Source: Clostridia bacterium
Lineage (GTDB): Bacteria > Bacillota > Clostridia > Christensenellales > UBA1242
Reading direction: 5' to 3'
Assembly (NCBI GenBank): GCA_028694075.1
Contig: JAQUUD010000003.1
Coordinates: forward strand, 1 to 33,892
Length of the DNA: 33,892 nt
Part shown: positions 9,429 through 32,173 of the stretch, one piece after another
Position numbering within the stretch: the first letter of the stretch is position 1
How the letters are laid out: each line of letters opens with the position of its first letter
The notes under the pieces: generated by a model
Told to the model about the DNA's origin: nothing
What the model saw: the letters and a program-made list of their open reading frames with translations, nothing else
Databases searched by the model: none
Position numbers and translations under genes: made by a program

Positions 9429-9525
9429 TTGCCGGCGAAAGAAAATTTTAGCATTCGCTAAAATTTTGGCAAGTGCTTGAAAAGCACTTGCACCGGGCTT
9501 TTCAAGCCCGGACTTTCGCCGGCAA
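9429..9525. repeat. Cloverleaf intergenic element copy 2
   Basis: Outer stem ttgccggcgaaag (9429-9441)/ctttcgccggcaa (9513-9525). Hairpins aaaattttagc-attc-gctaaaatttt (9442-9467), gcaagtgctt-gaa-aagcacttgc (9469-9491), ccgggctt-ttc-aagcccgg (9493-9511). Confidence 0.92.
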
Positions 9526-10531: not shown

Positions 10532-13500
10532 TTAACTGATCCTCCTGACCACCGGCATTAGAAATTGCTTCACTTAATTTAACTGATACAATTCTTGAAA
10601 TGCCTTTTTCTTCCATTGTAACCCCATATAAACTGTCGGCAAGTTCCATTGTTGGCTTCCTATGCGTTATAACAATAAACTGAGTATCATTTGCAAAACG
10701 CCTTAAATATTGTGCAAATCTTTCAACATTTGCTTCATCAAGGGCTGCTTCAATTTCGTCAAGTAAACAGAATGGCATCGGCTTTAATTTTAAAATCGCA
10801 AACAAAATTGCAATTGCAGTCAAGGCTTTTTCGCCACCGCTTAAAAGTGTAATATTCTGCAATCTTTTACCAGGCGGTTCTGCAACAATATCAACTCCGG
10901 CTTCCAAAACATTATCCGAGCCAACAAGTTGCAAATTCGCATTTCCACCACCGAATAATTCCTTAAAAGTTATATTGAAATTTGCATTGATTTTATGGAA
11001 TTCTTCAATGAAGCGCACAGTCATTTCTCCGGCAAGTTCATCAATAATTTTTGTCGTATCTTGCTCGGCTTTTTCAAGGTCATTCACTTGCGCAGACATA
11101 TCTTCAAATCTTTCATAAATAACCTTAATGTCTTCAATAGCGTTAACATTAACATACCCTAGCTTTGCAATTTCTCTTTTAAGTTCACTAATTTGATGTG
11201 ATGCCGAAATAAAATCGAAATCACTTCGTTTGAATTCTAAGCAGGTATTATATGTCAACTCATATTCTTCATAAATGCGTTTTTCTGTTGCTTCAACATC
11301 AGTTTCAAGTTTGTTCAGTTCGGTTTCAATGCGAAATTTTTTGTCATTAATGCGGTTAATATCTTGCATTAACTGTTCTTTTTTCACATCAATTATTTTT
11401 AATTGCTCTTGATATTTTATTTTGTTTTGCTCTAATTTTTCCTGCTCTTTTCTGATTACTTCAAGTTGTTGCTGATTTTCATAACCGATATTTTTCTCTT
11501 GCAATCTTTTGATATTTTCTTGTTCTTTTAATATGTAGGAACTATTATTCTCAATTTGTTGCTTGTTTAGTCGCAAACTTCCTTCTGTTTCTGTTATTTG
11601 CAATTCAATACGCCTAAAATCCTGCTCAATTGCATTAATTTCAGTTCTTATTTCGGCAATTTTAACCGCTTCAGTAATTTGAGTGCTGTTTTTCTTTTGT
11701 TCCAGTTCTTCAATATATTTCTTGTTTTCGTCGAGTTTGTCGGTTAAATTTTTTATAAACGCATTTTTGCTGATAAAATCCGCTTTTGCTTTTTGAATTT
11801 CAGCTAATAAATCAGTTATTTCTCTGCCCCTGCTTATTAAATTAACAGACTGCGATTTTCTTGAACCGCCTGTCATTGCACCCGACGGATTAATAACATC
11901 GCCGTCAAGCGTCACTATTTTGAAAGCGAACTGAGAATTTTTTGCAATTTTTACAGCAATGTCAAGGTTATCAACCAAAACAATTGCACCCAAAAGATTA
12001 TCCACCACGCTTTTTATTCTTTTGTCAAAAGTGATAACTTCGCTTGCAATTCCATGGCAACCAGCAGTTGTCAATGCCAGTCTTCTGTGTTCCAGTTGCA
12101 AATATCTAGGCTTCATTGAATTGACAGGCAAAAAGGTTGCGCGCCCAAATTGATTGCTCTTCAAATAATTTATTAGGCTTTTAGCATTTTCTTCATTTGT
12201 TGTAACAATATTTTGAAGCGCATTGCCAAGTGCAACTTCAATTGCAGTTTCAAATTTTTCCGGCACTTTGATTAAAGACGCTAAAATTCCAATCATTTTA
12301 TCTTTGATAAAACTGTTTTTCTCACTTTCTTTTAATAATTTACGAACGGCATAAGCATAACCTTCAAATTCGGATTGCATTTCAACAAGCAAACGATGTC
12401 TATTTTCATAAACTTGAATTTTAGCATTTAAATTAGATAAATTCTGCTCTTCTTCCTTAATTTGTGATGTTAAATTAATTATACTCAATTTTAATGCGGA
12501 ATAATTATTTAATAAATTTGAAAATTCGCCTGATGCTTCTTCCAGAATTTTAGATTTTTCCAAAAGTTCATCTTTTCGTTTTTCTTTCTGCTCTTTTTCT
12601 GCTTTAAATTTTATTAAACTGTTCTCACCGTTTAATAAATCGAGATTTATTTTTTCATTTTGCGAGTTTAAATTATTGATTCTTTCCTGAAATAATTTTA
12701 TTTCTCCAAGTTGTTTTTCAAGCCCAACCGTTAAGATTAGAATTTCATTGTTTATATTTTTAATTTGCTCATCTAAATTTGTAATTTGTTCCATTGTATC
12801 ATTATTCTTTTGGTTCAAACTTACAATTTCAGTTTGTCTTAAAGATAATTCTTCCAAAACAGCATTCATTTTTGTTGTAATCTGAGATTTTACTTCGCCT
12901 GAATTTTCATATTGATATATGTAGGAATTAATTTCTAGGTCTTTTAAGTTTTGCCTGAAATCTAAATATTTTTTAGCAGTTTCTGCTTGTTTCTTTAAAG
13001 GTCCAAGTTGCCTTTCAATTTCTCCAACTATATCACGCAACCGGCTCAAATTATCCCTTGTTCGTTCCAGTTTACGCTCCGCTTCTTCTTTTCTGGACTT
13101 AAATTTTGCAATTCCCGCCGCTTCTTCAAAAATCTTTCGCCTGAGTTCTGGTTTGCTTGAAATTATTTCTTCAACTTTGCCTTGACCGATTATTGAATAC
13201 CCGTCCCGACCTATTCCAGAATCAAAGAAAAGATTTACAATATCTTTTAATCTACATTGATTTTTATTTATTAAATATTCACTTTCGCCACTGCGATAAA
13301 GTTTTCGCGTAACTGAAAGTTCATCATAATCAATATCAAAAAATCTGTCTGTGTTGTTGAAATAAAGCGTAACTTCACAATATGAAAGGCTTCTCCTTTT
13401 TTCAGTTCCGCTGAAAATAACATCTTGCATTGAATTTCCACGCAAACTTTTGGAACTTTGCTCACCTAAAACCCATCTTATTGCATCGCCTACATTGCTT

Positions 13501-13802: not shown

Positions 13803-13908
13803 GCCGGTGAAAGCGGGCGGGTTTGCTTTGATAAAAGCAAACCCGTAGCAGTGCCAACGGCACTGCTGAATTTTTTGCCTTGGCAAAAAATTCCCCGCTT
13901 TCACCGGC
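13803..13908. repeat. Cloverleaf intergenic element copy 3
   Basis: Outer stem gccggtgaaagcggg (13803-13817)/cccgctttcaccggc (13894-13908). Hairpins cgggtttgctt..aagcaaacccg (13818-13845), agcagtgcc-aac-ggcactgct (13847-13867), gaattttttgcc-tt-ggcaaaaaattc (13868-13893). Confidence 0.93.
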
Positions 13909-21607: not shown

Positions 21608-21703
21608 TGCCGGCAGAAGAGTCGGTTGCCTTTTAATGCAACCGACGGCAACCTGAAAGGTTGCCGGTCTTTGGGCTTTGCCCAAAGACCGCTTCTGCCG
21701 GCA
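21608..21703. repeat. Cloverleaf intergenic element copy 4
   Basis: Outer stem tgccggcagaag (21608-21619)/cttctgccggca (21692-21703). Hairpins gtcggttgc..gcaaccgac (21621-21646), ggcaacct-gaa-aggttgcc (21647-21665), ggtctttgggc-ttt-gcccaaagacc (21666-21690). Confidence 0.94.
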
Positions 21704-26908: not shown

Positions 26909-27002
26909 TCGCCGGCAGAAGTGTCGGTTGCTAAGGCAACCGACTGCAACCTGAAAGGTTGCCGGTTTTTGGGCTCTGCCCAAAAACCACTTCTGCCGGC
27001 GA
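26909..27002. repeat. Cloverleaf intergenic element copy 5
   Basis: Outer stem tcgccggcagaagt/acttctgccggcga. Hairpins gtcggttgc-taag-gcaaccgac (26923-26944), gcaacct-gaa-aggttgc (26946-26962), ggtttttgggc-tct-gcccaaaaacc (26964-26988). Confidence 0.94.
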
Positions 27003-29002: not shown

Positions 29003-29098
29003 CCGCCGGCAGAAGCGACTTTTGGGGCGAAGCCCCAAAAGTCTGTCAGCGAAGCTGACAAGCGATTGCCTTTAGGCAATCGCTTCTTCTGCCGGCGG
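29003..29098. repeat. Cloverleaf intergenic element copy 6
   Basis: Outer stem ccgccggcagaag (29003-29015)/cttctgccggcgg (29086-29098). Hairpins gacttttggggc-gaa-gccccaaaagtc (29017-29043), tgtcagc-gaa-gctgaca (29044-29060), agcgattgcc-ttta-ggcaatcgct (29061-29084). Confidence 0.95.
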
Positions 29099-30556: not shown

Positions 30557-31201
30557 ATGGGAGAAATACTTGATAAATTGATTGGAAAAAAATTTACAAT
30601 AAAAATAGTTGATAAATTAATTAAAGAACAGCAGATACCTGACTGCATTTTAAATAATCCTGAATTTAAAAGAATTAAAAATATTCTTGACAGAGATGCT
30701 TCTCCGGAAACTGGGTGCCGTATTGAAGGCAGATTTGTTTCCTGTGAAAAAATTGTTAACAATTCAGGTTCCGGTTTATTACTAACTGAAGAAAAATCAA
30801 AATTAGGAAAGCCTAAACCAGAAATTTACGGAAGTTATTCATATGAAGTAATAAGCAGACCCGGATATGAAATACCACTTATACCCGAAGGCGAAAAAGC
30901 AGATGTCAAAAGTGTCGAATTTAACATTGATATAACTGATAAATATTACTTACAGCTTATAAAATTTTATGGAGTTAAAATTCCTAAATCATTAAAATTT
31001 GAAGTATTGCCTAACCCAGAGTCTTTTAAACCAAAGACTTCTAGTTTGAAACAAAATGCCACACTTGATATTTCACAAATTATAAAAGTTACTCAAAAAA
31101 CTTTTTCTGATCAAACTTCAATTACTCATTATGATAAAAATGGCATGGTTTTGGAGTCATCATTATCCAAACTAGCTGAATCTGTCTTAATGCCTAGATA
31201 A
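30557..31201 (+). CDS. Unknown protein, paralogue A of a tandem pair
   Basis: 214 aa with RBS aggagg upstream; shares IPDCIxxNPEFKxI, VEFxxxIxD, KFEVLxxPExxK, DIxxIIKVTxKT, DKNG with the downstream ORF. Confidence 0.75.
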   Translation: MGEILDKLIGKKFTIKIVDKLIKEQQIPDCILNNPEFKRIKNILDRDASPETGCRIEGRFVSCEKIVNNSGSGLLLTEEKSKLGKPKPEIYGSYSYEVISRPGYEIPLIPEGEKADVKSVEFNIDITDKYYLQLIKFYGVKIPKSLKFEVLPNPESFKPKTSSLKQNATLDISQIIKVTQKTFSDQTSITHYDKNGMVLESSLSKLAESVLMPR

Positions 31202-31341: not shown

Positions 31342-31370
31342 TTGACAAAATTCGTTATTTATGTTATTTT
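31342..31370 (+). promoter_or_regulatory. Promoter-like sequence for paralogue B
   Basis: TTGACA (31342-31347) in cTTGACAaaattc, 17-nt spacer to TATTTT (31365-31370). Confidence 0.45.
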
Positions 31371-31396
31371 ATTATACTATTAAAAAAGGCGGAATT

Positions 31397-32173
31397 ATGG
31401 AAAATTCAAGTGATTCAGAGGGGTCACATAATTTATATCAAAATCTTAAAACCTCATTAACAAATTATTTCAAAAAAATTAACTTTTCAACATATTCGCA
31501 AAATTTGCAATTTACTTTAGATGATTTTGTAAAAATACATCAAATTCCTGATTGCATTTCAAAGAATCCAGAATTTAAACAAATAGGCGATGTTTTTAAT
31601 ATCGCTGATGCTAACGATTGGTGTAAATTTGAATCACAAACAGGTGAGGACACTGACTATTTGGTTAATTTTGGTGTTGGGCATTTGAAATCAAAAAGCA
31701 AATCAATATTCGGTTTTCATGCAAATATGATTGTTGGTGCAAATTATGAATATAAAATTAAATCAAAAATCAACTATGGAGATGTCGAAGATGAAATTCA
31801 AACGGTTGAATTCAAATTTAAGATTTTTGATGAAAATATTTTAAAGAAATTGGTTACATATTCAAAATGCATTAAGTTTGATATTTTGTCAAAACCTGAA
31901 AATTACAAATCATCAAATAAAAATGAGTTTGATATAGATAAAATTATTAAAGTCACTGAAAAAACATACGCTCAAAATCATTTTGTTATGTTTTTTGATG
32001 AATATGGAAAGAGATTACAACCGTTAGAAAATGTTTGGTGGGCTATTGAATTAGTTGGTTCATCAAAACCCAAATCAGTAACAGTTGTTGAAAATATGAT
32101 AGATGATTGGCAAGATTTTAATCAAAATGCTTTACCGAATTCCAGCGCAAAAGACAAAGGTTTGGAACAATAA
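31397..32173 (+). CDS. Unknown protein, paralogue B of a tandem pair
   Basis: 258 aa from MENSSDSEGS (RBS aaggcgg upstream of ATG at 31397). Shared motifs with paralogue A. The tracked start at 31361 overlaps the promoter-like sequence. Confidence 0.75.
   Translation: MENSSDSEGSHNLYQNLKTSLTNYFKKINFSTYSQNLQFTLDDFVKIHQIPDCISKNPEFKQIGDVFNIADANDWCKFESQTGEDTDYLVNFGVGHLKSKSKSIFGFHANMIVGANYEYKIKSKINYGDVEDEIQTVEFKFKIFDENILKKLVTYSKCIKFDILSKPENYKSSNKNEFDIDKIIKVTEKTYAQNHFVMFFDEYGKRLQPLENVWWAIELVGSSKPKSVTVVENMIDDWQDFNQNALPNSSAKDKGLEQ

Follow-up and report, generated by a model that had tools for sequence, protein, structure and literature searches.

The cloverleaf at positions 29003–29098 of the studied window (the whole stretch of 33,892 nucleotides analyzed here) is, in our judgement, probably one of several dozen dispersed non-coding elements whose conserved property is their shape, and it is probably at the level of DNA that this shape matters. 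What can be read directly from the sequences is a uniform shape, loops and closing pairs of the DNA type, co-change of paired bases that keeps almost entirely to Watson-Crick pairs, and a gain of the elements between genes. Conserved bacterial palindromes are usually argued to be RNA or DNA structures without a clean discriminator. In the present case, four features all point to folded DNA as what is conserved: a loop rule specific to DNA (GNA, whatever the N), symmetry between the strands, the near absence of G·T pairs, and two-sided change.

Cloverleaf elements in the window and in related genomes

The window is a contig of an AT-rich, fragmented metagenome draft of 1.11 Mb (G000; 84 contigs, 90% complete). 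By its LepA relatives, this genome belongs with uncultured gut Clostridia. The cloverleaf (copy 6, or element 6; 96 nt, no strand assigned) consists of a 13-bp closing stem around three perfect hairpins, of 12 bp (loop GAA), 7 bp (loop GAA), and 10 bp (loop TTTA). On the plus strand, the 5′ side of the closing stem, CCGCCGGCAGAAG (29003–29015), pairs with its 3′ side, CTTCTGCCGGCGG (29086–29098). Between them lie arm 1 (29017–29043, loop at 29029–29031), arm 2 (29044–29060, loop at 29051–29053), and arm 3 (29061–29084, loop at 29071–29074). One unpaired base adjoins the closing stem on either side, and the arms abut directly. The predicted ssDNA fold has an energy of −47.5 kcal/mol on the plus strand and −48.2 kcal/mol on the minus strand (z of approximately −11.8), which is matched by none of 200 shuffles. 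The ViennaRNA parameter sets used give essentially equal energy to every triloop, and their ranking of loops is therefore uninformative.

The preliminary description reported two exact GCGAAGC caps in copy 6, and both are present, in arm 1 (29027–29033) and in arm 2 (29049–29055). Exceptional stability of DNA mini-hairpins is known to go, as a rule, with GNA or GNNA loops on short G-C stems, and GCGAAGC has a Tm of 78 °C (PMC4686876); arms 1 and 2 combine the GNA triloop, the C-G closing pair, and the G-C pairs of such hairpins. The bare heptamer is unremarkable in the window (four occurrences versus 1.8 expected; 8 of 100 shuffles reach four). It stands at 7 of the 138 hairpin tips of the 46 elements described below, and copy 6 is the sole element with two. 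What makes these heptamers significant is that they cap two hairpins, together with the tally over the whole family, and not the bare count.

Five further elements of identical architecture, likewise without an assigned strand, bring the number in the window to six. Element 1 (1248–1349) occupies a gap between convergent genes. Element 2 (9429–9525; loops ATTC, GAA, and TTC) lies downstream of ftsY, and element 3 (13803–13908; loops GATA, AAC, and CTTG) in the smc-plsX gap. Element 4 (21608–21703) is found in the trmD-ylqF gap, 5 nt past the trmD stop, and element 5 (26909–27002) in the lepA-hemW gap; the middle arm of each has the loop GAA. The window also encodes two adjacent hypothetical proteins (30557–31201 and 31361–32173) that share the DNA repeat D3 (75% identity, 30611–30675 and 31520–31584), which suggests a duplicated gene.

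Elements were sought with a structure-based detector that requires the closing stem to be perfect and the interior to be branched and at least 80% paired, and that leaves the number of arms free. It replaced a search for a pattern of GCCGG pairs, whose matches in relatives were mostly coding sequences and tRNAs. The detector returned 46 non-coding elements of 84–127 nt in 713 kb of the window's genome, a sample partly picked around stem-motif matches, so that the density is not an unbiased estimate; shuffled sequence yielded none. Exactly three simple hairpins, with 0, 1, or 2 unpaired bases per junction step, are present in all 46. Their closing stems, which form terminal inverted repeats, are perfect and have a mean length of 12 bp, absolute perfection being overstated since the detector prefers near-perfect copies. 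A covariance model built from the elements finds approximately 53 copies in the same 713 kb, i.e., adds only about seven weaker ones; in 833 kb from other Firmicutes it detects no copy. GCCGGC recurs often, but not always, as the closing stem, and both stem and arm sequences turn over.

Further species of the genus and of the family share this architecture, much more sparsely and with unrelated arms, and it recurs in assemblies made independently from other species (L106, L114, L121, L204, and G076). Many copies are present in only some genomes; for relatives, the counts over whole genomes are minimum values, as few candidates were scored per genome. Two loci of G076 (L300:17168–17303 and L304:13474–13608) hold closely similar cloverleaves of approximately 135 nt, longer than usual and in opposite orientation, with the common stem GGGGCGGGCTT. 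An Rfam search of the window gave only a tRNA above the gathering score and no structured RNA family match for the elements, and BLAST of copy 6 against phage and plasmid sequences gave no match.

Hairpin loops and paired changes

Triloops close 83 of the 138 hairpins. GNA or its complement TNC accounts for 39 of these 83, versus approximately 8–11% expected from composition (p = 1e-20; this and the following p-values count homologous arms as independent, against which the second genus and the counts of unique tips serve as guards). After identical tips are collapsed the share is still 17 of 44 (p = 5e-8). Control perfect hairpins of the same genome have GNA in only 4 of 69 cases (p = 4e-9 for the comparison with the elements). 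AAA and TTT loops are nearly as frequent as GNA in this genome (29 of 83 triloops), and the N of GNA is mostly A, which makes common descent of the arms a concern.

The decisive replicate is the second genus, G076: the arms of its 11 elements are unrelated to those of the window's genome and all four N occur (A in 6 loops, C in 5, G in 4, and T in 1). All 16 of its element triloops are GNA, compared with 4 of 28 in its own controls (p = 1e-8); a candidate overlapping an apparent tRNA 3′ end (L296:94–182) was left out of the loop counts. One homologous G076 arm, AAAC[TNC]GTTT, varies at N (T, C, or A) and keeps the G·A positions. Among other relatives, GNA makes up 7 of 14 element triloops versus 17 of 144 in general Firmicutes hairpins (p = 0.001). 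The 5′ loop-closing base is a pyrimidine (C or T) in 82–90% of element hairpins, giving a 5′-pyrimidine/3′-purine closing pair, and in 44–49% of controls, and family-wide the GNA loops are often closed by T-A. The preliminary description had proposed tabulating loops over the copies, with a lack of GAA/GNA enrichment as the outcome that would refute its reading; the tabulation clearly gave the opposite, with GNA enriched in the window's genome, in the second genus, and in other relatives.

G·T pairs are scarce, at 20 of 1945 stem pairs (approximately 1%) in the 46 elements, and only four internal 1×1 mismatches occur. Where related copies differ at a shared stem pair, both bases have changed in 120 cases and a single base in two, in comparisons of copies that are not independent of each other. 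A functional RNA stem is expected to show many G-U intermediates. Read in the direction of the neighboring genes, GAA and TTC loops occur about equally often (10 versus 14), so that GNA loops have no preference for either strand with respect to genes. The scarcity of G·T, the two-sided changes, and the lack of a gene-sense bias of loops point to DNA, not RNA. The pattern fits constraint or templating of folded DNA, as a single strand or a cruciform, better than it fits a conserved RNA.

Paired changes of exactly this kind arise when replication switches template between hairpin arms, and loops can be inverted in the process (PMC8794818, PMC8604942). One clear inversion, GAA to TTC or the reverse on an identical stem, separates two near-identical copies; as a general feature, inversion was not found (1 of 15 comparable loops). 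The preliminary description had further suggested that the element is tuned to fold as ssDNA. This suggestion appears to be right in part: it agrees with the GNA enrichment, the rarity of G·T, the two-sided changes, and the absence of gene-sense bias. On the other hand, few tips carry the exact heptamer, AAA and TTT loops are common, a cruciform would fit equally well, and part of what is seen could stem from neutral template switching.

Genomic placement and rival explanations

The elements are intergenic and lie mostly in tandem or convergent gaps, with only 2 of 41 in divergent ones (p = 0.015). The lepA-hemW gap measures 223 nt with element 5 versus 3–14 nt in most of the relatives in which this gene pair is retained, and the trmD-ylqF gap 274 nt with element 4 versus 8–64 nt in three relatives; judging by these gaps, the elements look inserted into tight operon junctions. 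In the relative L114, cloverleaves with unrelated arms are located at both of these junctions too (L114:5329–5458 and 13035–13120), which would reflect either old shared insertions with rewritten arms or recurrent insertion at the same sites. Two copies with 97% identity, 1.1 kb apart, have unrelated flanks, and their boundaries are the stem ends; thus the moving unit appears to be the folded stem-to-stem DNA. There is no excess of 2–9 bp flanking duplications over 39 elements, and no excision products of the elements were found. The outward flanks are T-rich on both sides (T 374 versus A 229 in the first 10 nt), and runs of four or more T are present within the first 8 outward bases in only 20 of 78 flanks. 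A different GC-rich degenerate repeat, with units like CCGGTTGACTG...ACTTGCCCG and not hairpin-like, is present on several contigs of the window's genome (C9:359–445, C13:2669–2745, and C38:8833–8934).

Preference for tandem and convergent gaps and T-rich flanks are what one would expect if the elements acted mainly as RNA, i.e., as bidirectional intrinsic terminators or as stabilizers of mRNA 3′ ends between genes. We consider such a main role unlikely, since three quarters of the flanks are devoid of a T run of that length, hardly any G·T pairs or one-sided changes are seen, and the triloop class is one favored in DNA and indifferent to gene sense. Moreover, the control hairpins, which should include terminators, have neither the GNA nor the 5′-pyrimidine pattern, and a strong terminator at lepA-hemW or trmD-ylqF would presumably be polar. 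A terminator side-effect is possible, as the outward flanks are mildly T-rich. The elements could also be a neutral by-product, if template switching perfects any multi-hairpin DNA and GNA tips are over-represented through easy folding, with neither mobility nor function involved. The two-sided changes and the loop inversion are indeed signatures of template switching (PMC8794818, PMC8604942), and we leave this explanation a minor share of probability; however, it does not account for the constant number of three arms, for the spread of one family over dozens of sites with the stem as boundary, or for a high copy number in only some genomes.

In their size, their dispersal between genes, their compensatory changes, and their ssDNA folding, the elements resemble the REPIN/REP families moved by RAYT (a Y1 tyrosine transposase), for which folding in a “clover” form has been suggested (PMC3116915), and Y1 transposases are present in two species of the same genus. 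Yet a search for Y1_Tnp (PF01797) gave no match in either of the two richest genomes, G000 (90% complete) and G076 (97% complete), and no cloverleaf accompanies the Y1 loci in those two species, so that membership in such a family is quite improbable. The transposase search covered the Y1 and IS110 families, and IS110 was likewise not found in the two richest genomes. An assembly or binning artefact might be suspected in a fragmented metagenome assembly, but identical architecture in independent assemblies of other species, with unique flanks, makes it hardly credible.

A proposed folded DNA unit and its known counterparts

According to the DNA-level proposal that we prefer, each element would be a perfect DNA four-way junction, made up of the closing stem and exactly three hairpins, into which either strand can fold. 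We infer that the fold arises in the cell, as a single strand or a cruciform. GNA caps would ease hairpin formation in ssDNA, as on the lagging strand, or extrusion from negatively supercoiled duplex, and the folded unit may be what is copied or recognized, by a putative structure-specific enzyme. Intra-strand template switching in replication would keep re-perfecting the arms, so that the sequence drifts and the shape stays. More tentatively, the elements might constitute mobile DNA of a class that shape, not sequence, defines, namely a perfect GNA-capped four-way junction that is copied or moved by a putative structure-specific enzyme while template switching continually rewrites its sequence; we regard this extension as possible, with doubts outweighing our confidence in it. 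Dozens of natural DNA four-way junctions are a resource for asking whether cruciforms occur in living cells and which enzymes read DNA shape. The elements also bear on how template switching maintains perfect palindromes.

REPIN- and MITE-like dispersed palindromes are the closest known kind, and the elements look like a new variant of it. REPINs and REP-BIMEs are also dispersed intergenic palindromes of approximately 100 nt with compensatory changes and proposed ssDNA folding and mobility (PMC3116915). The REPIN hallmark of ssDNA folding with compensatory changes is found in the elements, as a predicted fold. Unlike REPINs, the elements have a closing stem with exactly three perfect arms, no Y1/RAYT was found in the genomes rich in them, and their arm sequence turns over almost completely, with no conserved REP core in an inverted doublet. 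Bacterial MITEs and the pneumococcal BOX, RUP, and SPRITE repeats are similarly small and non-coding, with terminal inverted repeats, internal hairpins, and intergenic insertion (PMC3049150). The elements differ from MITEs and BOX in having no target duplications and a full four-way junction fold; the number of boxB modules in BOX is variable, whereas the number of arms here is always three.

Two other systems are alike in the kind of structure. Early promoters of phage N4 form small DNA hairpins with a GNA triloop and a C-G closing pair, and C-GNA-G is required there for hairpin extrusion at physiological supercoiling (PMC4496689). The N4 structure is a single promoter hairpin read by the phage RNA polymerase and involves neither dispersal nor a four-way junction. 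The LIMP palindromes of Lobosphaera mitochondrial DNA are dispersed as well, and cruciforms have been proposed for them (PMC4524435); they differ in that each is a single hairpin, built from repeated units and with a loop that does not vary, and in belonging to an algal organelle.
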